A stretch of DNA of 56,429 nucleotides from assembly GCA_019912395.1 (NCBI GenBank), contig JAIOIH010000078.1, forward strand, positions 1 to 56,429, in the 5' to 3' direction. This DNA comes from Flavobacteriales bacterium. GTDB lineage: Bacteria; Bacteroidota; Bacteroidia; Flavobacteriales_F; PHOS-HE28. The notes under the pieces were generated by a model, which saw only the letters and a list, made by a program, of their open reading frames with translations, was not told the origin of the DNA and ran no database searches. Below are positions 10,151 to 56,429 of this stretch, in pieces (the first letter of the stretch is position 1; every line of letters begins with the position of its first letter). The position numbers and the translations under genes were made by a program.

Positions 10151-10309
10151 CCATACATGGGTTGAGGAGCCCATTGCGGGGAATGGGAAGGATGTTCGGG
10201 AGGTCAACGGGGATATCATGCCCCATGAGATCAGTCCTTTTCATCGGGAAACACCTTGAAGACCCGATGGCACATGGTTCGCACGGTGCTGATCAAAAGA
10301 ACCTTCAAC

Positions 10310-10945
10310 ATGAAACATGCTTATCTCAATCTGGTGGCCCTATGCGGAGCGCTCCTCCTCGCGGCACCAACGTTCTCCCAAGGCCCCACCTTCGGTCTGA
10401 AAGGTGGATTGAACTACACCAACCTCGCTGGCCTGGATGCCGATGACAACAATGCCCGCGTGGGTTTCAATGCGGGCGTTTTTGCGCGCACCATGCCTGA
10501 ATCACCAGTGGGTGTCCAATTGGAACTGCTGTATTCCACCAAAGGGAATCGAACCACGTACAATGCCTTCTTCGGATTGGTGGAACAGGACGTTGACTTC
10601 AACCTCAACTACTTGGAACTTCCCGTGATGGCCTCCATCCGTGTGATGGATGTGGTGGACTTTCAGATCGGTGGCTATGCGGCCTACCTGCTTTCCGGCA
10701 AGGTGAAGACCTCCGGTGATCTGGGCAGTGGGTCAGGTGAGATCGACAAGAGCGACTTCACCTCACTCGATGCCGGAATTGTTGGCGGCATTGGTTTCAA
10801 TGTGGGCGAAAACCTACAGATCGGGATGCGATACCTCCACGGGCTTGTGGACGTGATCGACGATTCCACCCTGAGCGCTGTGGTGGGTGATGCCCAGAAC
10901 CGCTGCCTGCAAGTGTACCTCGCCGTTGGCGTGGGCGGTAATTAA
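10310..10945 (+). CDS. Outer-membrane beta-barrel protein, PorT-like
   Basis: A 211-aa protein with signal peptide (MKHAYLNLVALCGALLLAAP ... FSQ). The mature part reads as an eight-strand-type outer-membrane barrel of the PorT/OMP_b-brl_2 family: 'PTFGLKGGLNYTNLAG' at the start, 'VGFNAGVFA', 'VQLELLYSTKGN', 'LNYLELPVMASIRV', 'FQIGGYAAYLLSG', 'SLDAGIVGGIGFNVGENLQI' and 'GMRYLHGLVDV'. The function of individual members is generally unknown. The ATG at 10310 is chosen over upstream starts since the leader begins there. The gene converges with the T9SS protein at 10972. Confidence 0.88.
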   Translation: MKHAYLNLVALCGALLLAAPTFSQGPTFGLKGGLNYTNLAGLDADDNNARVGFNAGVFARTMPESPVGVQLELLYSTKGNRTTYNAFFGLVEQDVDFNLNYLELPVMASIRVMDVVDFQIGGYAAYLLSGKVKTSGDLGSGSGEIDKSDFTSLDAGIVGGIGFNVGENLQIGMRYLHGLVDVIDDSTLSAVVGDAQNRCLQVYLAVGVGGN

Positions 10946-10971
10946 GGTCTTATCCCATAGTATAGCCATCG

Positions 10972-12273
10972 CTACCCGATCACAATGCGGGCGGTCAGCA
11001 CTTGGCCGTCCGCATTGCGGGTTTGCAGCACGTACACCCCAGATGCCCAGCCGTCCGTGCTGAATTGATACCGGGCGGTCCGTTCGCTCACGGCCAGGAT
11101 CAAACGACCCTGTGCATCCATCACGCGCAGTTCACCGAGGGACCGTCCATCGGTGCTGGAAAGGATGGCGAAGCCGCTCCCCACGCTCACCACCAAGCGA
11201 GCATCGGCGAACTCAGTGACGGACTGCACCGGGTCGGCACAAGGTCCATAAAATGTAAAGCCAATTTCATTCTGGTCCATTGAGCTCACGTATTCGGCCG
11301 GACCGTAGGTCCCATTGGGATCCGCCACACCGTATACGAGTTGACCACCGGTTGGCTCCTGCTGCGGCATAAGGTGCAACTCATAGTTCCCGGATTGGAG
11401 GCACAGCGTGTCCTGATCGGATTGCTGGTCCACAGTGAGCGTGAGCAAACCACTGGTGATGGGGATCCCGTTGGAGAGTACCGTATAGGTAAAGGCCCCC
11501 AAACCGAGCGCATCACCAAAATTCCCGAGGTGCACCAGCATGGGAGAGCAGCTGTCCGGCGGGCAGAGGTCAATGCTGAGGTCCCATGTGCAGGCCAACT
11601 CGGAAAAGAAGCCGGTCCACAGTTGCAGCGTAGCATTGAAGGGGGACACCGGCATATTTGCTCCCTCTGGGATGTTGAGTATGTGGGTGCTTTCGGTCCC
11701 GATGCCGAAGAGATCGACCGTTTCGCGTGCCAGCGTATCACCATTGTCGCTGAGTAGCAGAAATCCCGGATAGTCGAACAGCGTGGTGGAGGAGTTGAAG
11801 GCATGCAGTACCAGTGCAGTGTCCGAAAAGGCGGCCCACTGGATGCTGCCGATCAGCAACGAGTCACACCCACCACTTCCGCCACCACCAGAGACCGTGA
11901 ATACATGCTGCTCGAACGGTGCTCCATCGTACACACCGAAGCCAGCCACATTCACGGTGTACGTTCCGGCAGGCAACAGGCCCACGTCGATGGTCTCCGT
12001 ATGCGGGACCAGCACATCCAGGCCGATCGTGTTCTGCGTTACCAGCGTCAGTTCAACCGAAAAACCATTTACCTGTGCAGTAGCAGTTGCAACCGACGAC
12101 CCCGTACTGGACAGGTTGCCGATAAGCTGAAGTTGTACATTATCCTGTTCGGTGGGGTCAGCTGGGGTGACTGCGATCTCGTCGACATAGAAGTAGGTCT
12201 GTGCCTGAACGGTGGAAAAGAGACAAACGCAGGCTGCCGCCAGCAGCACGTGAAGGGTCTTTGATCTGCTCAT
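10972..12273 (-). CDS. Secreted protein with T9SS type A sorting domain
   Basis: A 433-aa protein with signal peptide (MSRSKTLHVLLAAACVCLFS ... QAQ). The first mature domain looks Ig/bacterial-surface-like ('YFYVDEIAVTPADPTEQDNVQ ...'), followed by a Gly-rich linker (SGGGGSGG) near residue 130. The middle has several Cys pairs and no recognisable enzyme motif. The last 70 residues are a T9SS type A sorting domain ('VMDAQGRLILAVSERT ... WASGVYVLQTRNADGQVLTA'). It is probably an exported surface protein of unknown role. On the minus strand it lies downstream of the START and sulfotransferase genes, separated from them by 107 nt. A -7-like TTCG ends 5 nt before its ATG. Confidence 0.82.
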   Translation of the reverse strand: MSRSKTLHVLLAAACVCLFSTVQAQTYFYVDEIAVTPADPTEQDNVQLQLIGNLSSTGSSVATATAQVNGFSVELTLVTQNTIGLDVLVPHTETIDVGLLPAGTYTVNVAGFGVYDGAPFEQHVFTVSGGGGSGGCDSLLIGSIQWAAFSDTALVLHAFNSSTTLFDYPGFLLLSDNGDTLARETVDLFGIGTESTHILNIPEGANMPVSPFNATLQLWTGFFSELACTWDLSIDLCPPDSCSPMLVHLGNFGDALGLGAFTYTVLSNGIPITSGLLTLTVDQQSDQDTLCLQSGNYELHLMPQQEPTGGQLVYGVADPNGTYGPAEYVSSMDQNEIGFTFYGPCADPVQSVTEFADARLVVSVGSGFAILSSTDGRSLGELRVMDAQGRLILAVSERTARYQFSTDGWASGVYVLQTRNADGQVLTARIVIG

Positions 12274-12380
12274 GGGTCCGAAGGTTGTGGATGCATGACG
12301 CTATCGCTGTGCGAAACGCTGCCCGAAGGTATTTGACCTCAAGAGCGCTCCACGAAAGACCGTCGGAGCACATGGAGCGG

Positions 12381-12974
12381 TCACTGCGCCACGATCTTCC
12401 GCAGATTCTGCATCGTTCCGAAGGGCTGGTCCACAATGAAGCTGTTCGCCAGCCAGGCCGGTACGGCCCCGCCGGGTTCGCCGTGGAATTGATAGATCAC
12501 GTTGACGTTGCTCCCCGCTTGGGTCAACTTCCACGTACCGCTCGCACGTGTAATGCGCACCAGCTTTTTATTCTCCGGAATGCGGTCGGACAGGGCACGG
12601 ATGGTTACCGTTGCCGCACCACCTGCGGGGTCCATTTCCGTGCGTTGCTCATATACCCCGTCCCGATCACTTACCGGAAAGGGCACATCCGTGCGGATGT
12701 AATGCACCGTGTTATAACGGCCTTGCTGTTCCAGGACCGTGGCTTCGGCACAATTCGGGAAAAGTTCCATGAATCCGCTCACGTTGGTTACGATATCGAG
12801 CACGTCGGCCAACCGGGCGTTGTTCAAGGTGGTCACGGCCTTGAATTCAGCGATCGCCGATCCTTCCACGCTGCGCGTGTACACTTTGATGTCATCCTGG
12901 TCCTTTTTCAGCGACCATTCACCTATTCCGGTTGGAAGTGCAGTCAACAGGGCGATCGCAGCGATAAGGATCAT
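12381..12974 (-). CDS. START domain protein
   Basis: A 197-aa protein with an N-terminal hydrophobic segment (MILIAAIALLTALPTG) that is probably a signal peptide or anchor. The rest is a START/SRPBCC lipid-binding fold: 'WSLKKDQDDIKVYTRSVEGS', 'FKAVTTLNNARLADVLDIVT', 'YIRTDVPFPVSDRDGVYEQR', 'NKKLVRITRASGTWKLTQAG' and 'IYQFHGEPGGAVPAWLANSF' are typical blocks. Family members bind hydrophobic ligands such as lipids or sterols. Its start overlaps the stop of the upstream sulfotransferase by 4 nt, so the two are coupled. A joint role in modifying or moving a lipid-like substrate is a reasonable inference, not shown by the sequence. Confidence 0.88.
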   Translation of the reverse strand: MILIAAIALLTALPTGIGEWSLKKDQDDIKVYTRSVEGSAIAEFKAVTTLNNARLADVLDIVTNVSGFMELFPNCAEATVLEQQGRYNTVHYIRTDVPFPVSDRDGVYEQRTEMDPAGGAATVTIRALSDRIPENKKLVRITRASGTWKLTQAGSNVNVIYQFHGEPGGAVPAWLANSFIVDQPFGTMQNLRKIVAQ

Positions 12975-14134
12975 GGGCGTTCGTTGGTCGGTCGGGGTTC
13001 CTTGGTAGGGTCTGTTATCACTTGGACATTCTTCGGAAGTGCAAAGTTCTGCTCGCGCATGTACGGCTCCAATCGTTTCATCACGTATGTCAAATCGACC
13101 TTGTCCACTTGGTAGGTGTTCGTTCGATGGCCTTTTTGTGACTTGAGATAAGCCATATAGCAGGGCATGGCGACCGAGGGATCCCGGCGAAGCAACTGCC
13201 GCTCGATCATTTCCAAGGCATCCAAGGGAGCTTCCGCGAAGGTGTCATAACGGACCTCCAGCAAGTTCCCTGCCGGGATAAGCGATCGCTGCTCAGCGAA
13301 ATCACGCATCATGCGGTCATGCACATCCAGGATCATTTCGCTGAGGAAATCATCATTGGGCAATTCCTCCAAGCATAGCGTGGGCATGAGCTGTTGAAAG
13401 AAGCGCAGCGTGGAATAGTACACCGTGATCGGGTTGCGATGGATGTACAGGAACCTGGCATCCGGATACAGGCGAAGAAGCTTATCAATACGCGCGGTGT
13501 TCACCGGGTTCTTCACGATCAGCTGCTTGCCCTGGCTCGATACCGCCGCTTTCCTCAGCAGCTTGGCATAGGTGCGGTACCAGTGCTCCACCTCGCGTTC
13601 ATCAAGTCCGTTGTGGCGTACGGCGCGATCGTAGAAAGCCGCATACTGCGAAGGGAAGTAGAAGAAGTTGTAGTAGGCGTTCGGCTGCATGTTCGCGAAG
13701 GCGAATTCATCTTCTTGCGGGAAGTCCGGGTGCAGGGCGACACTGTCCGATGGGCGCTTGTCCGGCATGTTCAACCCCATGAAGGTCTTGAAGATCCACG
13801 TGCTGGCCATGTTGTTCGGGAACACCGATGCGTAGGTGCTCAAATAGGCTGCGCGAGGGTCTTGGCAAAGCACGTTGTGGAGCAGTGTGGTCCCGCTGCG
13901 CCAATGACCCAGGATAAAGAGGGGCGGCTCCATCGGTGCTGATCGTTTGATCCGCCTTCCATAGACCAGTTCTTCCCAGAGCTGGAATGGGGTACGAACA
14001 AGAACCACGAGCGTGGTCAGGGCCACTTTGAAGTAGGATCGCTTGGCGATGGTACCGCTTCGCAGGATCTTGAAATAGCTGCCGAGCACCGACCCCGCGA
14101 GGGTGGAGATCGGAGGGATCCTGAATTCGCTCAT
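12971..14134 (-). CDS. Sulfotransferase family protein
   Basis: A 387-aa sulfotransferase. The 5'-phosphosulfate-binding loop is 'PLFILGHWRSGTTLLHN' (residues about 71-87), and the 3'-phosphate-binding region is 'LIVKNPVNTARIDKLLRLYP' followed by 'DARFLYIHRNPITVYYST'. The family moves sulfate from PAPS to hydroxyl or amine groups. The acceptor cannot be read from the sequence. The coupled START-domain gene downstream suggests a lipid or other hydrophobic acceptor. It diverges from the ECF sigma factor; the 193 nt between them hold both promoters. No PAPS synthesis genes (cysD/N/C) are in the window. Confidence 0.9.
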   Translation of the reverse strand: MSEFRIPPISTLAGSVLGSYFKILRSGTIAKRSYFKVALTTLVVLVRTPFQLWEELVYGRRIKRSAPMEPPLFILGHWRSGTTLLHNVLCQDPRAAYLSTYASVFPNNMASTWIFKTFMGLNMPDKRPSDSVALHPDFPQEDEFAFANMQPNAYYNFFYFPSQYAAFYDRAVRHNGLDEREVEHWYRTYAKLLRKAAVSSQGKQLIVKNPVNTARIDKLLRLYPDARFLYIHRNPITVYYSTLRFFQQLMPTLCLEELPNDDFLSEMILDVHDRMMRDFAEQRSLIPAGNLLEVRYDTFAEAPLDALEMIERQLLRRDPSVAMPCYMAYLKSQKGHRTNTYQVDKVDLTYVMKRLEPYMREQNFALPKNVQVITDPTKEPRPTNERP

Positions 14135-14327
14135 CGTGTTGGGCCGTTCCGTAGGGCCATGGGAACGGATCGTGCGAAGTTCGGTGATCGGAGGGCCGGG
14201 ACCATACCAACCGGGCCTTGACCTCAGGGTTTCCCCATACAGCGGAAGGCCCTGCAGGGCGCGATACAGGTAGGGAGTAACTTTCGGCGAAGTGGACCGT
14301 CATACCATTAGGAAAGCATCTGTTCCC

Positions 14328-14813
14328 GTGACCCTGACCGACTACAATAGCGCTGTGGACCAGCATGCGGACGGCATCTACCGTTTCGCGGTGAAGCACC
14401 TGCGAGATACCGACCGGGCCAAGGATGTGGTGCAGGAGAGCTTTGCGCGGCTTTGGCAGAAGGTGGATGATGTGGAGGGCACAAAGGCGAAGAGCTACCT
14501 CTTCACCACGGCACACCACCTGTTGGTGGATGAAGCACGGAAGGATGTCCGCAAGACGAGGATGGAGGACCGGCATGCCGACCTACGCTGGACGGGACAA
14601 TCGCAGCCGGACCTGAAGGAGGTGTTGGATGCCGCATTGGCCACGTTGCCGGAAATTCAGCGCAGCGTGGTGCTGCTGCGCGACCTGGAGGGATACAGCT
14701 ATGAGGAGATCGCGGAGCTCACGCAGTTGAACATTTCCCAAGTGAAAGTGTACATCTACCGGGGACGGACCTCGCTGAAGCACTACATCGGAAGCTTGGA
14801 GAACGTGCTATGA
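14328..14813 (+). CDS. ECF-type RNA polymerase sigma factor
   Basis: A 161-aa sigma-70 family ECF factor. Region 2: 'DQHADGIYRFAVKHLRDTDR' then 'AKDVVQESFARLWQKVDDVE' and 'KSYLFTTAHHLLVDEARKD'. Region 4: 'ALATLPEIQRSVVLLRDLEG' then 'YSYEEIAELTQLNISQVKVY' and 'YRGRTSLKHYI' (helix-turn-helix). GTG at 14328 gives VTLTDYN, the normal family start; GTG at 14292 would add 12 residues. A TAACTTTC box at 14277 could be its -7 element. The stop overlaps the start of the anti-sigma-like gene by 4 nt, so the two are translated together and probably act as a regulator pair. Confidence 0.92.
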   Translation: MTLTDYNSAVDQHADGIYRFAVKHLRDTDRAKDVVQESFARLWQKVDDVEGTKAKSYLFTTAHHLLVDEARKDVRKTRMEDRHADLRWTGQSQPDLKEVLDAALATLPEIQRSVVLLRDLEGYSYEEIAELTQLNISQVKVYIYRGRTSLKHYIGSLENVL

Positions 14814-16171
14814 AATTGAACAGGGAGACATACGAAGCTTGGCTGCTGGACCGCATGGAAGGTGTTCTCACACCTGCCCAAGAAGCGGCGCTGAATGCCT
14901 TCCTGCTGGAACATCCGGACCTGGAGATTTCCGCCGATCCACTCCCCCGGGTGAACGTCAGCAACGAACACTTCCCCGGGAAGGAACAGTTGCACCGGAC
15001 CTTTCCACCCACAGGCACCCCGGATTCCGCGCGATTGGATGATTTCCTGGTGGCCCGCTTGGAAGAGGACCTGACCAGTGAGCAACAGCAAGAGCTGGCA
15101 CATTACCTGTATGAGCATCCGGAGGCTGAACGGCATGCCGTGTTAATGGCGATGGCCAAGGTGCCGTACGAGCCGATGGCCTTCACTGAAAAGGAGAAGC
15201 TGCACCGTCATTTTCCACCGCAGGGCCTTCCTGACCTCCACCGGCTCACCGATTTTCTGATCGCCGAGCTGGAGGGAGACCTAACTGCTGAGCAGCAGAA
15301 AGCCCTAAGGGCCTACCTCGCCGAGAATGCGATTGCACGCCAGGAACGGGAACTGGTGCATGCGTCGCGCGTGCAGGCCGAGCTTCTTCCCTATCCGAAA
15401 AAGAGTGATCTGAAAAAGCGTGAAGTGCGTGTCTTTGCGCTCTGGCCGCGATTGGCCGTAGCTGCCAGCGTGCTGCTGGTCCTGAGTGCCGGATGGTGGT
15501 TCCTCCGCGAGGACAGCAGGCAGGATGCGGGATTGGTACGCGTGGAACCAAAGGAGATCCTTCAACGTCCTTCCTCCACTTCAACCACTAATGCCCCGGT
15601 TGAAAGCGATCCTACAGATCAGATCCATCCGGAGGATCCTTCAGCAACTCAACCCGCTGAGGTGAGTGACGCTACCCAACGAAAGGAGCCATCCACCGTT
15701 GGGAAGGTGAAGCCCGGAAAAACGAATGCACACACACCGGAAGAGAAGCCTGAACAGGAACTTGAGCAGACACCGCAGGTCCCTGCATCACAAGTTCCGG
15801 TGATCGACCGGCTTCCCGTGAGGGAGCCGACACTTGCCCAGCTTCCTGACCAGCCGGTGCCTGAACCCATGGGCGTCAGCCCATCTTCAACATCAGTTGC
15901 AACGGATCAGGACCTGGCTGTTGTGGATACCAGGAACACCGGACAAAGCTTGGGCACCTTCGTAGCCAATACAGTACGAGGCGAAGTGCTTTCAGCCCCC
16001 GAACGCGCGGAGGTGTTGGATGGTCAGGATGCGCTGGCCTTTGCCGATAAGGCGATCGGCACCGTGACGGGCGGACGAGGTGGCGTACAACTCCAGCGCA
16101 ATGCCTCAGGTGAACGCATCAAGCTTCGCCTCGGGCGCAACCTTTCCTTCAGCGCCAGCAGGAACCGCTGA
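14810..16171 (+). CDS. Anti-sigma-factor-like membrane protein with three N-terminal repeats
   Basis: A 453-aa protein translationally coupled to the ECF sigma factor. Residues 1-205 hold three repeats of about 68 aa, each with 'F/WL-x3-LE-x-D/VLT-x-EQ-x2-L-x3-L-x-EHP' and, in the first two, a closing 'K-x2-LHR-x-FPP-x-GxPD'. One membrane segment (LAVAASVLLVLSAGWWFL) sits at about 221-238. The C-terminal half is low-complexity, Pro/Thr/Glu/Gln-rich and presumably periplasmic, ending in 'GERIKLRLGRNLSFSASRNR'. No zinc-finger (HxxxCxxC) is visible. Position and topology say anti-sigma factor, with the repeats as the cytoplasmic sigma-holding part; this is inferred. Confidence 0.75.
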   Translation: MKLNRETYEAWLLDRMEGVLTPAQEAALNAFLLEHPDLEISADPLPRVNVSNEHFPGKEQLHRTFPPTGTPDSARLDDFLVARLEEDLTSEQQQELAHYLYEHPEAERHAVLMAMAKVPYEPMAFTEKEKLHRHFPPQGLPDLHRLTDFLIAELEGDLTAEQQKALRAYLAENAIARQERELVHASRVQAELLPYPKKSDLKKREVRVFALWPRLAVAASVLLVLSAGWWFLREDSRQDAGLVRVEPKEILQRPSSTSTTNAPVESDPTDQIHPEDPSATQPAEVSDATQRKEPSTVGKVKPGKTNAHTPEEKPEQELEQTPQVPASQVPVIDRLPVREPTLAQLPDQPVPEPMGVSPSSTSVATDQDLAVVDTRNTGQSLGTFVANTVRGEVLSAPERAEVLDGQDALAFADKAIGTVTGGRGGVQLQRNASGERIKLRLGRNLSFSASRNR

Positions 16172-16377
16172 GCTTCTTCCGAGTTCGTGCCTACCGTATC
16201 GGCCCAATATTGCCACGGGTATGCAGCACCCGATCGGGCCTGTAAAGGTGCTGTGCCGCTCATCCCCGCCCCTGGACCGCTCATCCATTTCCCGCTGATC
16301 CGCTGTAACAAAGTGCCGGTTTTCCGTGTCTCATGCAAACAACCATCACAAGCCGAAACGGCCCAAAACCACATACC

Positions 16378-16758
16378 ATGAAAACCGGGATCCTTCGTCA
16401 AACCTTCGCGCTCTTGCTGATCGCATGCGCGATGAGCACACATGCGGCCAACCCTGTTACGGCCGAAGCACTTACCTTTTACACAAGCAACTCCATCGCT
16501 ATGGAGCGCGCCGTGAAGCACCAGATCAATCGCTACGTGATCTTCCCGTTGGATGCTGACGAGGAGGAGATGTTCGGAACGGTGGAGGTCCAGTTCGTGG
16601 TGAACACGGAAGGCAAGTTGGTGGTAACCGAAGCCCGCTCCGAGAACCAGGAACTATGTGACTATGTGCTGGCAAAGCTACGCCGCGTGCAAGTGGGCCC
16701 CAATCCTTCCGGGCTATGGAAAACCTCCCACCTGAGGTTCAACTTCCGGCCGGAATAG
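16378..16758 (+). CDS. Small secreted TonB C-terminal-like protein
   Basis: A 126-aa protein with a signal peptide (MKTGILRQTFALLLIACAMS ... THAA). The mature part resembles the TonB C-terminal fold: 'EMFGTVEVQFVVNTEGKLVV' then 'TEARSENQELCDYVLAKLRR' and 'LWKTSHLRFNFRPE'. It lacks a TonB membrane anchor and Pro-rich spacer, so it is probably not an energy transducer. Many Bacteroidota encode such free periplasmic domains of unknown function. The ATG at 16378 is chosen over one at 16333 because the signal peptide starts there. A terminator-like hairpin follows. Confidence 0.75.
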   Translation: MKTGILRQTFALLLIACAMSTHAANPVTAEALTFYTSNSIAMERAVKHQINRYVIFPLDADEEEMFGTVEVQFVVNTEGKLVVTEARSENQELCDYVLAKLRRVQVGPNPSGLWKTSHLRFNFRPE

Positions 16759-16778
16759 GTCTTCCACCAAGCTGAAGC

Positions 16779-16813
16779 GAAAGCGCCGTATGCCCTTGGT
16801 CATCGGCGCTTTC
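16779..16813 (+). terminator. Probable terminator hairpin
   Basis: GAAAGCGCCG (16779-16788) pairs exactly with CGGCGCTTTC (16804-16813) around a 15-nt loop, 20 nt after the TonB-like gene. Only a short T-containing tail (ACATTTG) follows, so strength is uncertain. Confidence 0.6.
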
Positions 16814-16889
16814 ACATTTGAGGAAAGGACCTTTGAGGAGCTGTAACTATTGGAACAGTGCCCCGTCCTATTCACAAAGCGACCAAGTG

Positions 16890-17876
16890 ATGAAACCTCT
16901 ACTATGCATTCCGCTCTTGCTGCTCCCTTTGATCGGCATCGCCCAGCAGGACAGCATCCCTGCCCCAAGCGGTACCGCTCCACAGGACCAACATATCCTC
17001 TACGTCACCGCAGGTAGTAACGGCGTGAAAGTGAAAGTGGAGAACACGGACACCAACTATGCGCAGAATGGTGACACCATCCGGATCACCTCCAAGCGCA
17101 AGCTTATCCGCATCATCACCACCAAGCGCACGGACGTGGACTCCACCACCTTCGAGAGCAAATTGGCCGACCTGAAACGTGAGCGACGCAACCTCTTTAG
17201 TTACTGGGCCGGCATGGAACTGGGCATGAACAGCTTCGTAACGGCGGATGGTCGCATAGGCGATGGACCGGAAAGCGGGCCACTGCAGCTGAACAATGCG
17301 AAGAGCCGCTTCTTCGCCATCAACTTCCTGGAGCGCAAGTTCGAGTTCGGCACCAACCACATCGGCCTCTTCACGGGTATGGGGATTGAATTCCTCAACT
17401 ACAGGCTCAGCGAGAACAACACCTTGCAATTCAACAGCGACAGCACGTACGCTGTGGCGATGGACAGCCCCGACCTGCGCAAGAACAAGCTGCGGCAGAT
17501 CGGACTGCGCGTACCGCTGATGCTCGAGTTCAACACCAACCGCGCCCAGCTTCCCCTCAATGCCGGAGCATTGGAGGCCAAGCCGGACTGGTCCTTCAGC
17601 CGGAAACACAACTTCCACCTTGCGGTCGGTCTGGTGGGAAGCTGGTACTTCGATACCATGTACAAACAGAAATTCAACGAGGGTGGCGAGTCGAAGAAGC
17701 TCCGCGCCAAGGCGAGCTACAATCTACTGCCGTACCGGGTGGCCGCCCGAGCGCAGATCGGTTACGGTGGCCTCAATCTCTTTGCCGAATACGGCCTCAC
17801 ACCCCTGTTCGAGGAAGGCACCGCGCCCACGCTGAACGCCTTGAACGTCGGCATCACATTGATCGGCTTCAACTAG
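16890..17876 (+). CDS. Outer-membrane beta-barrel protein
   Basis: A 328-aa protein with signal peptide (MKPLLCIPLLLLPLIGIAQ). After a linker containing 'ILYVTAGSNGVKVKVENTDT' comes a barrel domain of amphipathic strands: 'YWAGMELGMNSFVT', 'FFAINFLERKFEFGTNHIGL' and 'FTGMGIEFLNYRLSE', then 'LRQIGLRVPLMLEFNTNR', 'KHNFHLAVGLVGSWYF', 'RVAARAQIGYGGLNLFAEYG' and the closing 'LNALNVGITLIGFN' strand with terminal aromatic-Asn. It belongs with the PorT-like/outer-membrane beta-barrel proteins common in Bacteroidota; role unknown. Upstream in-frame codons are not signal-like, so the ATG at 16890 is used. A strong terminator follows at 17921. Confidence 0.85.
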   Translation: MKPLLCIPLLLLPLIGIAQQDSIPAPSGTAPQDQHILYVTAGSNGVKVKVENTDTNYAQNGDTIRITSKRKLIRIITTKRTDVDSTTFESKLADLKRERRNLFSYWAGMELGMNSFVTADGRIGDGPESGPLQLNNAKSRFFAINFLERKFEFGTNHIGLFTGMGIEFLNYRLSENNTLQFNSDSTYAVAMDSPDLRKNKLRQIGLRVPLMLEFNTNRAQLPLNAGALEAKPDWSFSRKHNFHLAVGLVGSWYFDTMYKQKFNEGGESKKLRAKASYNLLPYRVAARAQIGYGGLNLFAEYGLTPLFEEGTAPTLNALNVGITLIGFN

Positions 17877-40573: not shown

Positions 40574-40600
40574 CGCAGGGTCCCGAGGCGGAGACCTGAG
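40574..40600. repeat. Partial REP-like unit
   Basis: CGCAGGGTCCCGAGGCGG then AGACCTG: the core shared with the two 40-nt palindromes at 53809 and 55856, but the outer stem is degenerate. It lies in the 295-nt gap between rlmN and the AI-2E-type permease, in which I see no gene. Confidence 0.45.
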
Positions 40601-50815: not shown

Positions 50816-52093
50816 ATGCGGGGAAAGACAGTACGGAACATGGGCGGGCTGGTGCTGGTCGCGGCCGGGGCGGCCTATCTCTATCTGGGTGTGGACCTCT
50901 CCCCGCACCAGGAATACAGGGAGGAGGCAGCGGTGTCGGCACAGGATACCCTGCCTGCGCCGCCCAGCGCCTATGGCATTCCGCTGGCCGGTTTTTGCGT
51001 TGATCGCGATCATGTGAGGTCCGGATCCACCTTCAGCGCCTTGCTCCTGCCCCTGGGCATCAGCGCGGCAACCATCGACAGCCTCGTGCGCTTGGCCGCT
51101 CCGATCTTCGATGTGAACCGCATCCGTGCAGGCCATCCCTTGGCCTTCATCTTCCCGGAAGATTCCAGTGATACCCCGGCCTACTTCGTCTATGAGTCCG
51201 ATCCCGTGGACCATGTGGTGTTCGACCTGCGCCCACCGTATTCCGTGCGCATGGAAAAGCGCCCGGTACATACCGAGGAGAAGAGCCTCAGCGTGGAAGT
51301 GACCGGTGCCCTATGGAACGACCTGGTGGGGGCCGGGGCCACTCCGGCCTTGGCCGCGGAGCTGAGCAAGGTGTTCGCATGGACGGTGGATTTCTACCGG
51401 ATCCAGAAGGGTGACCGCTTCACCATGATCTATCGGCAGAAGACCGTGGACGGCGTGCCCTACGAAGATCCCGTTCTGCTCAGTGTCCGGTATGAAGGTT
51501 CCAGCACGCAGGAAGCCTTCCTGTTCGATAGTCCCGATAGCAAGGGAGGCTATTACGATGCGGAGGGCAAGAGCTTGCGCAAGGCCTTCCTGCAAGCCCC
51601 GTTGGAATACAGTCGCATCTCATCGGGCTTCAGCCGCCGCCGCTTCCACCCGGTACAGAAACGCATGAAGGCCCACTTGGGCACGGACTATGCCGCACCC
51701 TACGGCACGCCCATCCGCTCCACGGCCGATGGCGTAGTGGAAAAGGCCGGCTACACCGGGGGCAACGGCAACTACGTGAAGATCCGCCACAACCGGACCT
51801 ACGAGACGCAATACCTGCACATGCGCAAGATCCTGGTAAAGCGCGGACAAGTGGTAAAGCAGGGGCAGGTGATCGGCGAGGTGGGCAGCACGGGGCTGGC
51901 CACGGGGCCGCACGTGTGCTATCGCTTCTGGAAGAACGGCAAGCAGGTGGACCCGCGCAGGGAGATCCTGCCCAGCGCCGACCCGCTGAAACCCGCGGAC
52001 CTCCCCGCGTTCGACCAGGTACGGGACGAGTTTCTCGCTCGCATGGACGAGGCGGAAAGCGAGGCGAAGACCCTCAGCGTAGCTACCTTCTAG
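50816..52093 (+). CDS. M23-family peptidoglycan endopeptidase
   Basis: A 425-aa membrane-anchored protein: basic start, then one hydrophobic helix (NMGGLVLVAAGAAYLYLGV). Residues about 50-250 hold an OapA/LysM-like part with 'SAATIDSLVRLAAPIFDVNR' and 'AELSKVFAWTVDFYRIQKGD'. The M23 domain follows: 'YSRISSGFSRRRFHPVQKRM', zinc ligands His287 and Asp291 in 'KAHLGTDYAAPYGTPIRSTA', 'GNYVKIRHNRTYETQYLHMR' and 'TGPHVCYRFWKNGKQVDPR'. The usual HxH is here H366-V-C368, Cys replacing the second His, a change I believe is common in Bacteroidota members and compatible with zinc binding. TTGCTTCG ends 4 nt before the ATG. The end overlaps the convergent oxidoreductase by 4 nt. Confidence 0.92.
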   Translation: MRGKTVRNMGGLVLVAAGAAYLYLGVDLSPHQEYREEAAVSAQDTLPAPPSAYGIPLAGFCVDRDHVRSGSTFSALLLPLGISAATIDSLVRLAAPIFDVNRIRAGHPLAFIFPEDSSDTPAYFVYESDPVDHVVFDLRPPYSVRMEKRPVHTEEKSLSVEVTGALWNDLVGAGATPALAAELSKVFAWTVDFYRIQKGDRFTMIYRQKTVDGVPYEDPVLLSVRYEGSSTQEAFLFDSPDSKGGYYDAEGKSLRKAFLQAPLEYSRISSGFSRRRFHPVQKRMKAHLGTDYAAPYGTPIRSTADGVVEKAGYTGGNGNYVKIRHNRTYETQYLHMRKILVKRGQVVKQGQVIGEVGSTGLATGPHVCYRFWKNGKQVDPRREILPSADPLKPADLPAFDQVRDEFLARMDEAESEAKTLSVATF

Positions 52094-52746
52094 CGCTCGG
52101 TCATCCGACGAATATCGCGGTAGGTATACCGGTGCATTCCGCCTTGAGGATCGATCGAGGCTTCCACCAACGCCCTGGCCAGCACCATGTGCGGCATCAC
52201 GCGGAGCCGGGCCAACGAGCCCAACAGCAAGGGGCCAAGCAGGTGCATTACAACAATACCCACCCCCTCGCCAAAGCGCTTTTCCTGCCGGGGACCGGAA
52301 AGAACGGAAGGCTGGAAGATGGACAAGTTGCTGAATTGCATCGCTTCCAGCTCCTGCTCCACCTCCCCTTTCACGCGGCTGTAGAAAACCCGGGAACCCG
52401 GATCCGCACCGACCGCGCTGATGATCACATAGGTAGGCACCCCTTGCGCCTTGGCCCACCGCGCGATCCCCAGCGGTAGCGCCTTGTCCACGGCGAGAAA
52501 GGCTGCTTGGCTACCCGCGTTCTTGATGGTGGTGCCCAGGCAGCAGATCACTGCATCCACTTTCGCCGGTTTCAGTTCTTCTTGGAGATCATCGCCCACC
52601 CATTGTTCCAGCTTGGGGTGTGTGATGGTCAAGGGTCGCCGCACCAAAGCGATCACCTTACCCACGCGTTCATCAGCCAGCAGCAGTGGCAGGCAGGCGC
52701 TGCCAACAAGCCCCGTGGCACCGGCAAGGAGAATGGTCTTTGACAT
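52090..52746 (-). CDS. NAD(P)-binding Rossmann oxidoreductase (HTATIP2/YbjT-like)
   Basis: A 218-aa atypical short-chain reductase. Nucleotide-binding loop 'ILLAGATGLVGSACLPLLLA' (GxxGxxG), then 'VIALVRRPLTI', 'DAVICCLGTTIKNAGSQAAF' and 'YVIISAVGADPGSRVFYSRV' (Tyr-x3-Lys active-site type, with KGEVE following), and 'LSIFQPSVLSGPRQEKRFGE'. Substrate unknown. It diverges from the membrane protein/regulator pair at 52940, and its 3' end overlaps the M23 gene by 4 nt. A truncated, diverged copy of its first 83 codons lies at 55897-56148. Confidence 0.88.
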   Translation of the reverse strand: MSKTILLAGATGLVGSACLPLLLADERVGKVIALVRRPLTITHPKLEQWVGDDLQEELKPAKVDAVICCLGTTIKNAGSQAAFLAVDKALPLGIARWAKAQGVPTYVIISAVGADPGSRVFYSRVKGEVEQELEAMQFSNLSIFQPSVLSGPRQEKRFGEGVGIVVMHLLGPLLLGSLARLRVMPHMVLARALVEASIDPQGGMHRYTYRDIRRMTER

Positions 52747-52870
52747 GGCGTGAAGTTCGGCAGAATATGGTCCGCCGACCTCCTCTTCACCGGATCACCT
52801 TCAGCACTGTGGTGGTGGGGAAGCAAGACTACTGAAGGCACTACCAAAAAATAAATGATCACACTCCTTC

Positions 52871-52900
52871 TTGTTTATTTTATAAACCTATTTACATTTG
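52871..52900 (+). promoter_or_regulatory. Consensus Bacteroidota promoter
   Basis: TTG at 52871-52873 and TACATTTG at 52893-52900 are separated by exactly 19 nt, the full -33/-7 consensus TTG-N19-TAnnTTTG. It is 39 nt upstream of the membrane-protein ATG, and the same arrangement is kept in the duplicated copy (56187-56216). Confidence 0.85.
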
Positions 52901-52904
52901 CCCC

Positions 52905-52920
52905 GTCGGAATGTTCCGAC
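52905..52920. promoter_or_regulatory. Palindromic operator
   Basis: GTCGGAATGTTCCGAC: perfect 7-bp inverted repeats around TG, starting 4 nt after the -7 box and so covering the transcription start. The likely binder is the winged-helix regulator encoded as the second gene of this operon. Confidence 0.65.
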
Positions 52921-52939
52921 CACCAACTCCAACGAGACC

Positions 52940-53524
52940 ATGGAACGCGAACTCACTCCCTCCGAAAGCCTCAAGCTGATAGAGACAATGATCTCCCAGG
53001 CCAAACAAAGTTTCCACCGTCAGAGCTTCTACTTCCTCCTGTGGGGTGCGTTGTTGATCGCCGCGATGATCTTCAACTACGTGATGGCCATGCAGGGCAG
53101 CCCCATTGGATCGTATGGATGGGCCGTAGTGGGAATGGTCGGTGGCCTCCTAAGCTGGTGGCGCGGCGCACGCGAGGCCAAGCACCAACACGTGCATACG
53201 ATGATGGACCGCATGATCGCATGGCTATGGGCCGGCTTTTTGGCCACCTTGTTCATCACCATGCTGGGGAGTGGCATTTCCGGGGACCCCATGAACGTGG
53301 GCGCGATCATCGTGCTCACCGGCCTGCCCACCTTCCTCACCGGCCAGCTGATGCGTTTCAAGCCATTGATCCTAGGAGGGATCCTTTTCTGGGTGCTCGG
53401 TGCCATCTCCTTCTTCGTGGACATGCGCGCCGTGGCCTTGTTGTATATCGTCGCGATGTTCTTCGGCTATCTGGTCCCCGGCTACCTGCTCAAGCGTCAA
53501 GAGGATGGCCTTCGCACCGCTTGA
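52940..53524 (+). CDS. Multi-pass membrane protein
   Basis: A 194-aa protein of unknown function. A soluble N-terminus ('MERELTPSESLKLIETMISQ') with predicted helix is followed by six hydrophobic segments: 'FYFLLWGALLIAAMIFNYVM', 'YGWAVVGMVGGLLSW', 'MIAWLWAGFLATLFITMLGS', 'VGAIIVLTGLPTFLTGQLM', 'LILGGILFWVLGAISFFV' and 'ALLYIVAMFFGYLVPGYLL'. It is the first gene of a two-gene operon: the winged-helix regulator starts 20 nt inside its end. Pairs of this kind (membrane protein plus small PF13601-type regulator) are widespread in Bacteroidota. Its promoter and operator are clear (52871-52920). The first 12 codons are repeated, diverged, at 56255. Confidence 0.82.
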   Translation: MERELTPSESLKLIETMISQAKQSFHRQSFYFLLWGALLIAAMIFNYVMAMQGSPIGSYGWAVVGMVGGLLSWWRGAREAKHQHVHTMMDRMIAWLWAGFLATLFITMLGSGISGDPMNVGAIIVLTGLPTFLTGQLMRFKPLILGGILFWVLGAISFFVDMRAVALLYIVAMFFGYLVPGYLLKRQEDGLRTA

Positions 53525-53801
53525 TCCACTGCTGCATAACCAATTGCGCTTGGCCATTGTGAGCCTGCTGGTGGGTGTGGACAGCGCGGATTTCAACTTC
53601 CTGCTGGAGAAAACGAGCGCCACGCGCGGCAACCTCAGCGTGCAGATCACGAAACTGAAGGACGCGGGCTATGTCACGGTGAAGAAGACCTTCAAGGACA
53701 ACTACCCCAACACGAGCTGCTCGCTTTCCGCCAAGGGGCTGAAAGCCTTCGAGGCCTATGTGAAGGCGATCAAGGTGTACTTGGGGACTGGTGAAGATTG
53801 A
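53505..53801 (+). CDS. Winged-helix transcriptional regulator (HTH_27 type)
   Basis: A 98-aa DNA-binding protein: 'PLLHNQLRLAIVSLLVGVDS', 'ADFNFLLEKTSATRGNLSVQ', then recognition region 'ITKLKDAGYVTVKKTFKDNY' and 'PNTSCSLSAKGLKAFEAYVK'. This is the single winged-helix domain of PF13601, related to MarR/ArsR. Its start overlaps the end of the membrane-protein gene by 20 nt in another frame, so the pair is translationally linked. It is the natural candidate to bind the palindrome at 52905-52920 and repress its own operon; this is inferred. A REP-like palindrome begins 8 nt after the stop. Confidence 0.9.
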   Translation: MAFAPLDPLLHNQLRLAIVSLLVGVDSADFNFLLEKTSATRGNLSVQITKLKDAGYVTVKKTFKDNYPNTSCSLSAKGLKAFEAYVKAIKVYLGTGED

Positions 53802-53808
53802 TGGGGGC

Positions 53809-53848
53809 GTCCCAGCGCAGGGTCCCGAGGCGGTGACCCAGCGGGGAC
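53809..53848. repeat. REP-like 40-nt palindrome, copy 1
   Basis: Outer arms GTCCC / GGGAC, inner arms GCAGGGTC / GACCCAGC, around the loop CCGAGGCGGT. It matches copy 2 at 55856-55895 at 35 of 40 positions by eye. A further partial unit (GCGGTGACCCTGCGGGGGCTTC) follows directly. Copies 1 and 2 flank htpG in the same orientation. Confidence 0.7.
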
Positions 53849-53896
53849 TTCAAGCGGTGACCCTGCGGGGGCTTCAAAGCGTCATCCTCACTGCGG

Positions 53897-55777
53897 TCAC
53901 TTGATCAACTCAACGCTTCTGCGCAGGAAGGCGGTCAGCGCTTCGCCCTTCAGCAGGCCCTGCCCCAGCAGCGCCAGGTCCACCGCTTGCTTGCTCAGCT
54001 TCTCCTTGCGCTTGTCTGTCTTCGCCTCTAAGATGGTCTGCGTCAGGGGATGGTCGGTGTTCACCACCAGGTTCATCATCTCCGGCATCTCGCCCATCAT
54101 GCGCATGCCGCCGGTGAGCTGCTGCTCGCGCATGCGGCGCATGAATTCCGGGCGGGTGATCACCACCGCGTCGCCTTCGCTGCCCATGGGCTCGAACTGC
54201 AGGTGGAACTGGTCCTTCCCGATCACCGCCTCGAAGGCGGGCTTCAGTTGACCGATCTCTTCTTCACTCAGCTTCCCGACATGCTTCTCTTCCTTCGGCA
54301 CCAGCTTGTCCAGCGTGTCGGCGTCCACGCGGGCGAAACGCAGGTTCTCGTGCTTCATCTCCAAGCGCTGCACCACGTGGGCGGTGAGCGGGCCGTCCAG
54401 CAGCACCACTTCGTAGCCGCGCCCCTTGGCCGCCTGGATGAAGGAGTGCTGCCCCTCCTTGTCGGTGGCGTAGAGCAGCACCAGGTTGCCATCCTTGTCG
54501 GTCTGCAGGGCCTTGGTCTTTTCCCGCAGTTCCTCCAGCGTATGGAAATTCCCCTCGCTGTCCTTCAGCAGGTTGAAATCCTGCGCGGCCTCGAAGAATT
54601 TCTCATCCGTGAGCATGCCGTACTCGATGAAGACCTTGATGTCGTCCCACTTCGCCTCCAGGTCCTTGCGGTCCTTGTTGAACATCTCCTTCAGCTTGTC
54701 GGCCACCTTCTTGGTGATGTGGCCGCTGATCTTCTTCACGTTGGCATCGCTTTGCAGGTAGCTGCGTGAGACGTTCAGGGGGATGTCCGGCGAGTCGATC
54801 ACGCCGTTGAGCAGGGTGAGGAATTCCGGCAGGATCGCGCTCACGTCATCGGTCACGAAAACCTGCTCGCTGTACAGTTGCACCTTGTTGCGGCGCGGGT
54901 CGAAATCATTCTTCAGTTTGGGGAAGTAGAGAACGCCCGTGAGCTTGAAAGGATGGTCCACGTTGAGGTGGATGTGGAACAAGGGGTCCTCGCTGAACGG
55001 ATATAGCTCGTGGTAGAGGGCCTTATAATCTTCGTCCTTCAGCTTGGTGGGATGCTTGGTCCACGCCGGATCGGTGTTGTTGATCACTGCGGGCTTCTTC
55101 TCCTTCTTGTCCCCTTCGCCGCTTTCCTCCTCCCCGAAGAGGATCGGCACCGGCAGGAAGCTGCAATACTTTTTCAGGATGCCCCGCACGCGCGCCTCGC
55201 TGAGGAATTCCTTGCTGTCCGCGGCGATGTGCAGGATCACGTCCGTGCCGCGCTCCTTGCGCTCGCCCTTCCCCAGGGAGAACGACGTGCTCCCCTCGCA
55301 GGTCCAGTGTACGGCCTCGGCACTGGGCTGCCAGGAGCGGCTCACTAGTTCCACCTTGTCGGCCACCATGAAGGCGCTGTAGAAGCCCAGGCCGAAGTGC
55401 CCGATGATGTTCGGTGCATCCTGCTCGCCCTTGTACTTCTCCAAAAACTCCTCGGCACCGCTGAAGGCGATCTGGTTGATGTATTTCTCCACCTCCTCCG
55501 CCGTGAGCCCCACGCCACGGTCGCTGATGGTGAGGGTACCTTCCTTCTCGTCGATGCGCACCTCGATGTTCAGCTCGCCCAGTTCCTCCTTCAGCTCTCC
55601 TTTAGCGGAGAGCACCTTCACCTTCTGGGTGGCATCCACGGCATTGCTCACCAATTCCCGCAAGAAGATCTCGTGATCCGAATACAGGAACTTCTTGATG
55701 ATGGGAAAAATGTTCTCTGTATGCACGCTGATGGTGCCCTGCTTGGCTTGCGCCTGCTCCTCGGTGATAGTGGCCAT
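53897..55777 (-). CDS. htpG: Chaperone HtpG (Hsp90)
   Basis: A 626-aa ATP-dependent Hsp90 chaperone. The N-terminal ATPase has 'SDHEIFLRELVSNAVDATQK', 'LTISDRGVGLTAEEVEKYIN' and 'GHFGLGFYSAFMVADKVELV' (nucleotide-binding lid and Gly-rich loop), then 'HWTCEGSTSFSLGKGERKER'. The middle domain has 'GVLYFPKLKNDFDPRRNKVQ', 'GVIDSPDIPLNVSRSYLQSD' (catalytic Arg) and 'NRKDLE'-like helices. The C-terminal dimerisation domain ends 'LLGQGLLKGEALTAFLRRSV'. Length is normal. It stands alone, flanked on both sides by REP-like palindromes and, beyond them, by the two copies of the duplicated divergent region. Confidence 0.96.
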   Translation of the reverse strand: MATITEEQAQAKQGTISVHTENIFPIIKKFLYSDHEIFLRELVSNAVDATQKVKVLSAKGELKEELGELNIEVRIDEKEGTLTISDRGVGLTAEEVEKYINQIAFSGAEEFLEKYKGEQDAPNIIGHFGLGFYSAFMVADKVELVSRSWQPSAEAVHWTCEGSTSFSLGKGERKERGTDVILHIAADSKEFLSEARVRGILKKYCSFLPVPILFGEEESGEGDKKEKKPAVINNTDPAWTKHPTKLKDEDYKALYHELYPFSEDPLFHIHLNVDHPFKLTGVLYFPKLKNDFDPRRNKVQLYSEQVFVTDDVSAILPEFLTLLNGVIDSPDIPLNVSRSYLQSDANVKKISGHITKKVADKLKEMFNKDRKDLEAKWDDIKVFIEYGMLTDEKFFEAAQDFNLLKDSEGNFHTLEELREKTKALQTDKDGNLVLLYATDKEGQHSFIQAAKGRGYEVVLLDGPLTAHVVQRLEMKHENLRFARVDADTLDKLVPKEEKHVGKLSEEEIGQLKPAFEAVIGKDQFHLQFEPMGSEGDAVVITRPEFMRRMREQQLTGGMRMMGEMPEMMNLVVNTDHPLTQTILEAKTDKRKEKLSKQAVDLALLGQGLLKGEALTAFLRRSVELIK

Positions 55778-55855
55778 GGATCGTTTTTTTGTTGCGCCGC
55801 GCGAGGGACAAAGGATATGCCAGCAGGTGGAATGGTGACAGCTTGACAGTCGATC

Positions 55856-55895
55856 GTCCCAACGCAGGGTCCCGAAGCGGTGACCATGCGGGGAC
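55856..55895. repeat. REP-like 40-nt palindrome, copy 2
   Basis: Outer arms GTCCC / GGGAC, inner arms GCAGGGTC / GACCATGC, loop CCGAAGCGGT. It ends right where the truncated oxidoreductase copy begins (stop at 55897), so it marks a duplication breakpoint. Confidence 0.7.
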
Positions 55896-55896
55896 T

Positions 55897-56148
55897 TTAG
55901 AACGCCGCTTGGCTACCAGCCTTTTTGATGGTGGTTCCGAGGCAACAGATCACGGCATCGAGGGGCGCGGACTTCAATGCCTTCAGCAGGTCATCGCCCA
56001 CCCATTGTTCCAGCTTGGCGTGTTCGTTCGCCAAGGGGCGCCGCACCAAAGCGATCACCTTATCCACGCGTTCATCAGCCAGCAGCAGTGGCAGGCAGGC
56101 GCTGCCAACAAGCCCCGTGGCACCGGCGAGGAGGATCGCTCTGGACAT
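55897..56148 (-). pseudogene. Truncated second copy of the NAD(P)-binding oxidoreductase
   Basis: 83 codons from ATG to a stop, matching the first 83 residues of the oxidoreductase at 52090-52746 at 68 positions (82%). The nucleotide-binding loop 'ILLAGATGLVGSACLPLLLA' is intact, and the match ends at 'GTTIKKAGSQAAF', where the frame hits a stop at the edge of the REP-like palindrome. The catalytic half is gone, so no activity is expected. Differences are scattered and mostly amino-acid-changing, so this is an old or transferred paralogue rather than a fresh duplicate. Confidence 0.85.
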
Positions 56149-56186
56149 GCGGTGAAGGTCGACAAGAAATAAAATCGAACCACGTT

Positions 56187-56235
56187 TTGCTCATTTCATA
56201 AACCTATCTACATTTGTTCGTCGGAATGATCCGAC
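56187..56235 (+). promoter_or_regulatory. Duplicated promoter and operator
   Basis: TTG at 56187-56189, 19 nt, then TACATTTG at 56209-56216; followed by GTCGGAATGATCCGAC at 56220-56235, which keeps 6-bp arms of the palindrome. The upstream spacer is about 87 nt shorter than in the first copy. Confidence 0.75.
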
Positions 56236-56254
56236 CACCAACTCCAACGAGACC

Positions 56255-56320
56255 ATGGAACGCGATCACACTCCCTCCAAAAGCCTCAAGGGTGGTTCGA
56301 AGAACCTGTTGACAACTTGA
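56255..56320 (+). pseudogene. 5' fragment of the membrane-protein gene copy, cut by an IS
   Basis: The frame begins MERDHTPSKSLK, matching MERELTPSESLK of the gene at 52940, and then runs into foreign sequence (GGSKNLLTT, stop at 56318-56320). Identity to the first copy stops at the bases CCTCAAG (about 56290). From there the sequence is probably the left end of an insertion sequence. Confidence 0.8.
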
Positions 56321-56429
56321 TGCCTGATGATCTTGACAATGTGGGGTGTGATCGATCTCTTTGAGGCATGAACAAGAAGCGTCCCACTGCCGGTCTTTTC
56401 GATGTGCATCACAAGCAAGCCAAGCTGGC
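56291..56429 (+). mobile_element. Left end of a probable insertion sequence (partial)
   Basis: Sequence after 56290 no longer matches the first copy of the locus. TTGACAA occurs twice (about 56309 and 56333), a promoter-like start. The element runs off the window, so the right end, terminal repeats and target duplication cannot be seen. Confidence 0.5.
56368..56429 (+). CDS. Transposase, N-terminal 20 residues only (partial)
   Basis: An open frame starting MNKKRPTAGLFDVHHKQAKL and cut by the window end. The 'LFD-x(4-6)-KL' start resembles IS5-like transposases of Bacteroidota. Its position behind a break in synteny supports a transposase, but 20 residues cannot fix the family. Confidence 0.45.
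   Translation, partial: MNKKRPTAGLFDVHHKQAKL

Follow-up and report, generated by a model that had tools for sequence, protein, structure and literature searches.

The window analyzed here, the whole of contig C48 (56,429 nucleotides) of a Flavobacteriales genome assembly (G000; 4,132,750 bases in 87 contigs), carries at positions 55900–56289 a truncated second copy of the start region of two divergent genes, an oxidoreductase-like gene (ox) and a membrane-protein gene (mem). Sequence comparisons suggest that this second copy is probably the native ox/mem start region, displaced when a block resembling the genome of the nearest relative (G022, a Flavobacteriales MAG, probably JAHBUL010000001.1) was inserted at the locus.

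The repeated start region and its surroundings

The repeat finder paired positions 52499–52762 with 55901–56164 (83% over 264 nt), 52858–52900 with 56174–56216 (77%), and 52904–52975 with 56219–56290 (94%). A genome-wide DNA search agreed with this result: it recovered two pieces of the second copy with E values of 2.2e-75 and 7.7e-34 and revealed no third copy of the region in the 87 contigs. The repetition of the divergent start region, proposed in the initial annotation, was thus confirmed, as were the boundaries of the second copy, namely, a REP-like element on one side (junction at 55899|55900) and, after 12 codons of mem, an insertion sequence (IS) on the other.

The second copy retains 83 codons of ox, as had been noted, with an amino acid identity to the intact gene over the same codons of 83% rather than 82%; the nucleotide divergence of this part is 17%, and amino acid changes are numerous. 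The promoter region, described earlier as kept, is present but shortened in its middle, since alignment and coordinates give an intergenic region of 106 bp in copy 2 versus 193 bp in copy 1. The ox and mem remnants are pseudogene ends. The features of the locus are listed in Table 1; no Pfam or NCBIfam match was found for the mem protein.

Table 1. Features of the ox/mem locus and of its second copy (window positions; the start coordinate of wHTH is provisional).
Feature	Position	Strand	Evidence or remark
ox copy 1, intact NAD(P)-binding oxidoreductase-like gene	52090..52746	-	PF13460/PF01370
Left-hand change from background to G022-like sequence	within 52166..52222, taken as ~52175		mismatch map
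Intergenic region, copy 1 (intact, divergent)	52747..52939		13 mismatches vs G022 in 740 nt over 52200–52939
mem, intact membrane-protein gene	52940..53524	+	allele clade A, not G022-like
wHTH, winged-helix regulator gene, overlapping the mem end	about 53511..53801	+	PF13601 HTH_34, E 9.4e-26
REP-like repeat left of htpG	53808..53874	+	repeat family D3; pattern match at 53820
htpG (Hsp90 chaperone), probably acquired	53897..55777	-	NF003555, 632 bits, cut-off 371
REP-like repeat right of htpG, where the G022-like tract ends	55855..55899	+	91% to the left repeat
ox copy 2, truncated, 83 codons	55900..56148	-	stop codon at 55897–55899, from the REP-like element
Patch near-identical to copy 1, 89 bp, likely conversion tract	56039..56127		one mismatch, at 56063
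Intergenic region, copy 2, shortened	56149..56254		mem-side promoter-like site at 56186–56216
mem start, copy 2 (12 codons), read into the IS	56255..56320	+	21-residue hybrid
IS5-family element (1246 bp), left end	56290..56429	+	transposase start at 56368; contig ends

The repeats at htpG, which we take to be dispersed intergenic repeats of a REP-like kind, share the core GGGTCCCGAAGCGGTGACC. This core showed 18 matches with at most three mismatches versus 2 for the reversed control, a dispersal beyond chance. Like REP elements, the unit is short, G+C-rich, and present in many copies.

Similarity to the nearest relative and the locus in the genus

The divergence from G022 is distributed along the locus in an uneven manner. 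In the genes left of the locus, 34–51% of fourfold sites differ (leuS 122/363, DUF3108 43/100, and M23 92/181), whereas the values are 1/46 in codons 1–83 of ox copy 1 and 23/259 in htpG, the product of which is 98% identical in amino acids. The wHTH gene differs at 7/42 fourfold sites, and mem differs at 31/58 (60% amino acid and 65% nucleotide identity). The exchange around the locus appears patchy, as the ispG-like ORF, too, is fairly similar to its G022 counterpart (60/311). In most 300-bp steps of the aligned window, identity to G022 is 68–91%, while ox and htpG reach 93–98%. Other stretches of high identity are found at 10.2–17.7 kb (92–100%) and in one step of leuS (93%); over its initial 9 kb, the window has almost no match within the G022 stretch compared.

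The left limit of the G022-like sequence lies inside the intact ox gene. Mismatches with G022 are dense up to position 52165; one more follows at 52175, and then just two (52222 and 52224) precede 52318. Fourfold sites in codons 191–215 of ox differ at 8 of 10 positions, so that the switch near 52175 is sharp (8/10 versus 1/46), as a homologous crossover at one end would leave it. Since its last codons are at background divergence and the rest is G022-like, the intact ox gene is a chimera, with codons 1 to ~190 of the G022-like type and codons 191–215 of the background type. The G022-like part points to recent sharing with the G022 lineage.

The G022-like stretch extends from ~52,175 to 55899, interrupted by mem, and stops at the exact base preceding copy 2. 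The REP-like element right of htpG is the same element in the same place in G022; past it, the G022 sequence runs into unrelated DNA toward ispG. A phylogenetic tree of the mem protein (17 rows) placed G000 and G022 on opposite sides of a split with high support (96/99).

Foreign DNA without homology to the native locus is represented between the two ends by htpG, which was found in 3/45 genomes of the genus (G000, G022, and G011). In G011 it occupies another setting, ox, mem, and wHTH all being absent from the 1.5 kb and ~0.7 kb of flanking sequence compared. The rarity in the genus of htpG, which is located between the two copies, had been missed in the initial annotation.

The order leuS-DUF3108-M23-ox-mem-wHTH is complete in the loci of six of 11 relatives (G022, G006, G024, G010, G019, and G032). 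It is partial or interrupted in the other five, some of which are cut by the extent of the stretch compared: G031 and G004 contain extra DNA inside the leuS-to-wHTH order, ox is without a match in G020, mem and wHTH are without one in the G002 stretch, and G017 shows just ox, mem, and wHTH. Among these 11 loci, htpG stands beside the locus in G022 alone, where a single ox-mem locus is followed by wHTH, htpG, the REP-like element, and ispG. An ispG-like ORF right of the locus, after variable genes, was recognized in four of nine relatives (G019, G031, G006, and G024) in addition to G022; that of G019 matched TIGR00612 ispG_gcpE with 470 bits (cut-off 280).

The comparison across related genomes did not reveal the second copy in any relative searched. 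The DNA of copy 2 matched 16/45 genus genomes, its own included, and two separate ox-start loci were present in no genome of the 45 except G000, both results being based on the best 15 or fewer candidates per genome. The ox protein matched 41/45 genomes, with no second strong match to its N-terminal part outside G000, and mem was single in each of the 29 genomes with a match among 35 searched. The absence of a second copy from relatives had been named in advance as a result that would speak against a second locus. This absence holds as far as the search extended, but it does not refute the repeat, because a scar private to G000 should be absent elsewhere.

Origin of the second copy

Copy 2 itself is heterogeneous. 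It differs from G022 at 42/249 ox positions, which are unevenly spread. The stretch at 56039–56127, with its single mismatch to copy 1, was reached in 0/20000 permutations of mismatch positions, and the longest such stretch between copy 2 and five other relatives is 19–29 nt. Outside positions 56026–56134, copy 2 differs from G022 at 35/140 positions and 7/14 fourfold sites, versus 2/24 fourfold sites inside; in this outer part, its distance to every relative compared is much the same (34–40 of 140). Copy 2 is therefore likely to combine background divergence with a short conversion patch. In a tree built from the 83 ox codons, copy 2 fell beside copy 1 and G022 (support 91/97), but no placement was resolved once the patch was left out. 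Because the grouping depends for the most part on the 89-bp patch, the tree was not retained as proof of affinity. In its mem leader, copy 2 agrees with copy 1 at 105/126 positions and with G022 at 101/126, compared with 62–67% for six other relatives (best 82/122). Being closest to copy 1 and G022 in this leader, copy 2 probably stems from the G000/G022 line and not from a distant source.

According to the explanation that we consider the most probable, the native locus had the order leuS-DUF3108-M23-ox-mem-wHTH-...-ispG, and the ox-mem-wHTH-htpG-REP block of a G022-like relative would have recombined into the native ox gene. The left end would correspond to a homologous crossover inside ox near codon 190, and the right end, just past the REP-like element, to a join with native ox at codon 83 that shows no obvious homology. 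As a result, ~320 bp of native ox between the two points would have been lost and htpG gained, with the 5' part of native ox and the start of mem left stranded right of htpG. Later, an IS5-family element would have inserted at codon 12 of the stranded mem; the 89-bp patch of the stranded ox may have been converted by copy 1, or the reverse.

The coincidence of the tract end with the start of copy 2, and the background-like divergence of copy 2 outside the patch (7/14), support this explanation. In addition, the ispG-like gene of G000 is located behind an IS3-family end, as would be expected if the stranded side had later been broken. The intact mem (60% amino acid identity) and, to a lesser degree, wHTH (7/42) fit a simple G022-like block poorly; the donor may have possessed a clade-A mem, or the native mem may have been copied back or mem replaced later. 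The nearly equal identity of copy 2 to several relatives when the patch is omitted also stands against it, as do the closeness of ispG to G022 and the failure to find the remainder of native mem and wHTH in the assembly. We infer the direction of transfer, a single event rather than several, and the mechanism of the right-hand join. The direction from the G022-like relative to G000 is suggested by the order in G022, which runs simply to ispG, while the block in G000 is bordered by a partial duplicate; transfer in reverse would need a clean deletion.

The main rival supposes that ox-mem was duplicated in tandem long ago in the G000 lineage. Its second unit would then have decayed and been interrupted by the IS, and separate later exchanges with a G022-like lineage would have replaced ox and introduced htpG in the first unit. 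A mem leader peculiar to G000 and G022, the patchy exchange (ox 1/46, wHTH 7/42, htpG 23/259, and ispG 60/311), and a mem of another allele clade are all consistent with such a history. Nevertheless, it appears considerably less probable, as the second copy was not found in the other genus genomes searched and the exchanged tract would have to end by chance on the first base of copy 2.

The initial annotation proposed an old paralogue or a transferred second operon. What stands of this proposal is a truncated divergent copy that is private to G000 in the genus sample; its polarity was probably reversed, since the fourfold-site values given above point to the intact ox and htpG, rather than copy 2, as the transferred part. 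A foreign operon brought in separately and then truncated would agree with the 17% nucleotide divergence and many amino acid changes of the ox part, and with the 34–40 of 140 differences to every relative compared outside the patch. We regard this as quite unlikely, given that six other relatives are more distant in the mem leader than copy 1 and G022 are and that copy 2 lies in native orientation at the edge of a tract that itself looks foreign. An assembly chimaera, with 55900–56429 misjoined behind htpG at the REP-like repeat, is the least likely explanation: the assembly is fragmented (87 contigs), the REP-like repeats are dispersed, and the contig ends in a multi-copy IS, but the 17 other matches to the REP-like core all carry 1–3 mismatches, contig overlaps of ~140 nt at the IS suggest joins based on long words, and the assembly contains copy 2 at no other place.

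The displacement of the native start region by a G022-like block resembles known processes. In homology-facilitated illegitimate recombination, as described in the consulted part of PMC3240628, a homologous crossover at one end is combined with an illegitimate join at the other, and foreign DNA is added. The homologous left end and the DNA added to the locus correspond to this scheme, as would the putative illegitimate right end; unlike it, the present case is deduced from one natural genome assembly, and the mem gene in the middle of the block mismatches the donor-like genome. Single-round laboratory transformants of B. subtilis carry several discontinuous donor segments close together (PMC13344027, consulted part). 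Low and high divergence alternate similarly here over a few kb (ox, mem, wHTH, htpG, and ispG), although many events over time may overlie one another in G000. A likeness to the tandem duplications that follow transformation was dismissed, as those reported in the consulted part of PMC3784515 are ~100–900 kb long and do not resemble this locus. The portion of the literature on HtpG and horizontal gene transfer that was consulted contained nothing on this kind of case. Thus, the kind of event is already known, and what is new is this instance together with a hint of a recurrent capture site.

As for the latter, it may tentatively be proposed, at a low level of confidence, that the ox-mem-wHTH locus is a natural site of exchange and capture in the genus, where strongly diverged mem alleles are swapped between species inside conserved flanks and one-sided ox recombination repeatedly adds genes. 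Candidates for such added genes are htpG in G000, an insert flanked by duplicated edges in G004, and other cargo in G002 and G031. If this proposal is true, selection would favor diversity in mem and its regulator, for instance in a surface trait or one related to phages, and the locus would be worth watching for interspecies gene flow. The window would also offer a readable natural case of how the whole htpG gene may enter a lineage new to it, within Flavobacteriales known through metagenome assembly, both edges of the event being visible, and a caution that the intact member of a duplicated pair is not necessarily the native one.

The insertion elements and the promoter-like site

Contig C48 breaks 140 nt into the IS. 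The same left end also terminates C50, C49, C66, and C18, and a collapsed full copy of 1246 bp with one transposase opens C49. The transposase of the C49 copy is of the IS5-type DDE class (NF033581, E = 8e-80, 268 bits, cut-off 140; PF01609 and PF05598). Like members of the IS5 family, the element has imperfect terminal inverted repeats (GGGTGGTTCGAAGAACC and GGTACTTCGTGGTACCC) and, at four sites, 4-bp target duplications, which were identified by eye: TATA at C50/C8, TTAG at C66/C10, ATAT at C18/C49 start, and TAGA at C49 end/C20. Five left ends are present at contig ends, and four right flanks (C49 start, C10, C20, and C8). Two further, more distant IS ends (74%) are located on C86. All four right flanks were rejected as the right end of the window copy, being taken by other 4-bp duplications; no partner for its left flank TCAA was found in the assembly. 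The window copy therefore differs from the other IS copies, whose duplications are seen, in having no right end in the assembly.

A search beyond the window for the IS right end and the missing 3' parts of copy 2, which the initial annotation had recommended, did not find them in the assembly: mem has just one match, and apart from the two copies ox has only a distant paralogue on C6 (31%). Likewise, the remainder of native mem and wHTH was not found in the assembly, where contigs down to 1228 long were seen, nor did the opening 700 bases of C11, the ispG contig, show any credible mem or wHTH. It is possible that a shorter unplaced contig contains the lost 3' part. The ispG-like gene of G000 occupies positions 518–2488 of C11. 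The first 140–145 bases of this contig recur on C67 and C6 and represent the end of an IS3-family element, the orfB of which was identified on C6 (NF033516, 219 bits, cut-off 160). With one IS at the end of copy 2 and an IS3-family end before ispG, at least two insertions appear to have disrupted the stranded side.

The promoter-like site of copy 2 has the form TTTG-N19-TACATTTG. In a search of the window for exact TTTG-N18..21-TANNTTTG, with the TTTG/TANNTTTG consensus taken from the consulted part of PMC6847099, this site was the sole match (0.16 expected; at least one match in 14/100 shuffles). The counterpart in copy 1 has CTTG instead of TTTG and gives no exact match. The site is directed into the IS, toward the transposase start, and the hybrid mem frame ends earlier, at a stop codon at 56320 after nine codons of IS sequence. 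Some transcription from the putative copy 2 promoter into the IS, as envisaged in the initial annotation, is possible, and the remnant would have no function beyond, perhaps, such passive transcription.

Inserted DNA near the oxidoreductase gene in related species

Additional DNA containing ORFs adjoins the NAD(P)-binding oxidoreductase-like gene (ox) in two genomes of the same genus, namely, G002 (~3.3 kb; locus L115, 2542-5814) and G031 (~2 kb; L113, 5998-8054). Thus, inserts are taken up in the neighbourhood of ox in several species. In G004, an insert of ~4 kb with two long ORFs separates the M23 gene from ox (L112, 1598-6245), and its borders carry a weak fragment of the ox 3'-end and a fragment of the M23 3'-end. 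This insert with its 3'-end fragments is perhaps an insertion scar similar to that of G000, the genome of the window, in another species.

Probable exchange among relatives

At the same locus (L111, L112, L113), the divergent membrane-protein gene is nearly identical between G004 and G019, yet their M23 genes differ. G019 and G031 have almost the same sequence at the starts of an ATPase gene and of the ispG-like ORF. These near-identities probably represent further exchanges at the locus.

Positions 10200-17700 of the window show 92-100% identity per 300-bp step with G022, the nearest relative, versus 68-91% for most of the aligned window. Since this identity is high, the ORFs of the stretch are protein-coding and ordinary in appearance, and an Rfam search of the window gave no match, the stretch looks like another recent exchange tract.

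Repeated elements

The core pattern of the REP-like repeat had 18 matches genome-wide versus 2 for a reversed control pattern.

REP-like repeats located in the window
Feature	Position	Context
REP-like repeat	53808-53874	directly flanks htpG
REP-like repeat	55855-55899	directly flanks htpG
REP-like repeat	40578-40596	

Near both ends of contig C86 of G000 (L011, L012) lie two places that share 74% identity with the left terminus of the IS5-family element and probably belong to a diverged relative of this element.
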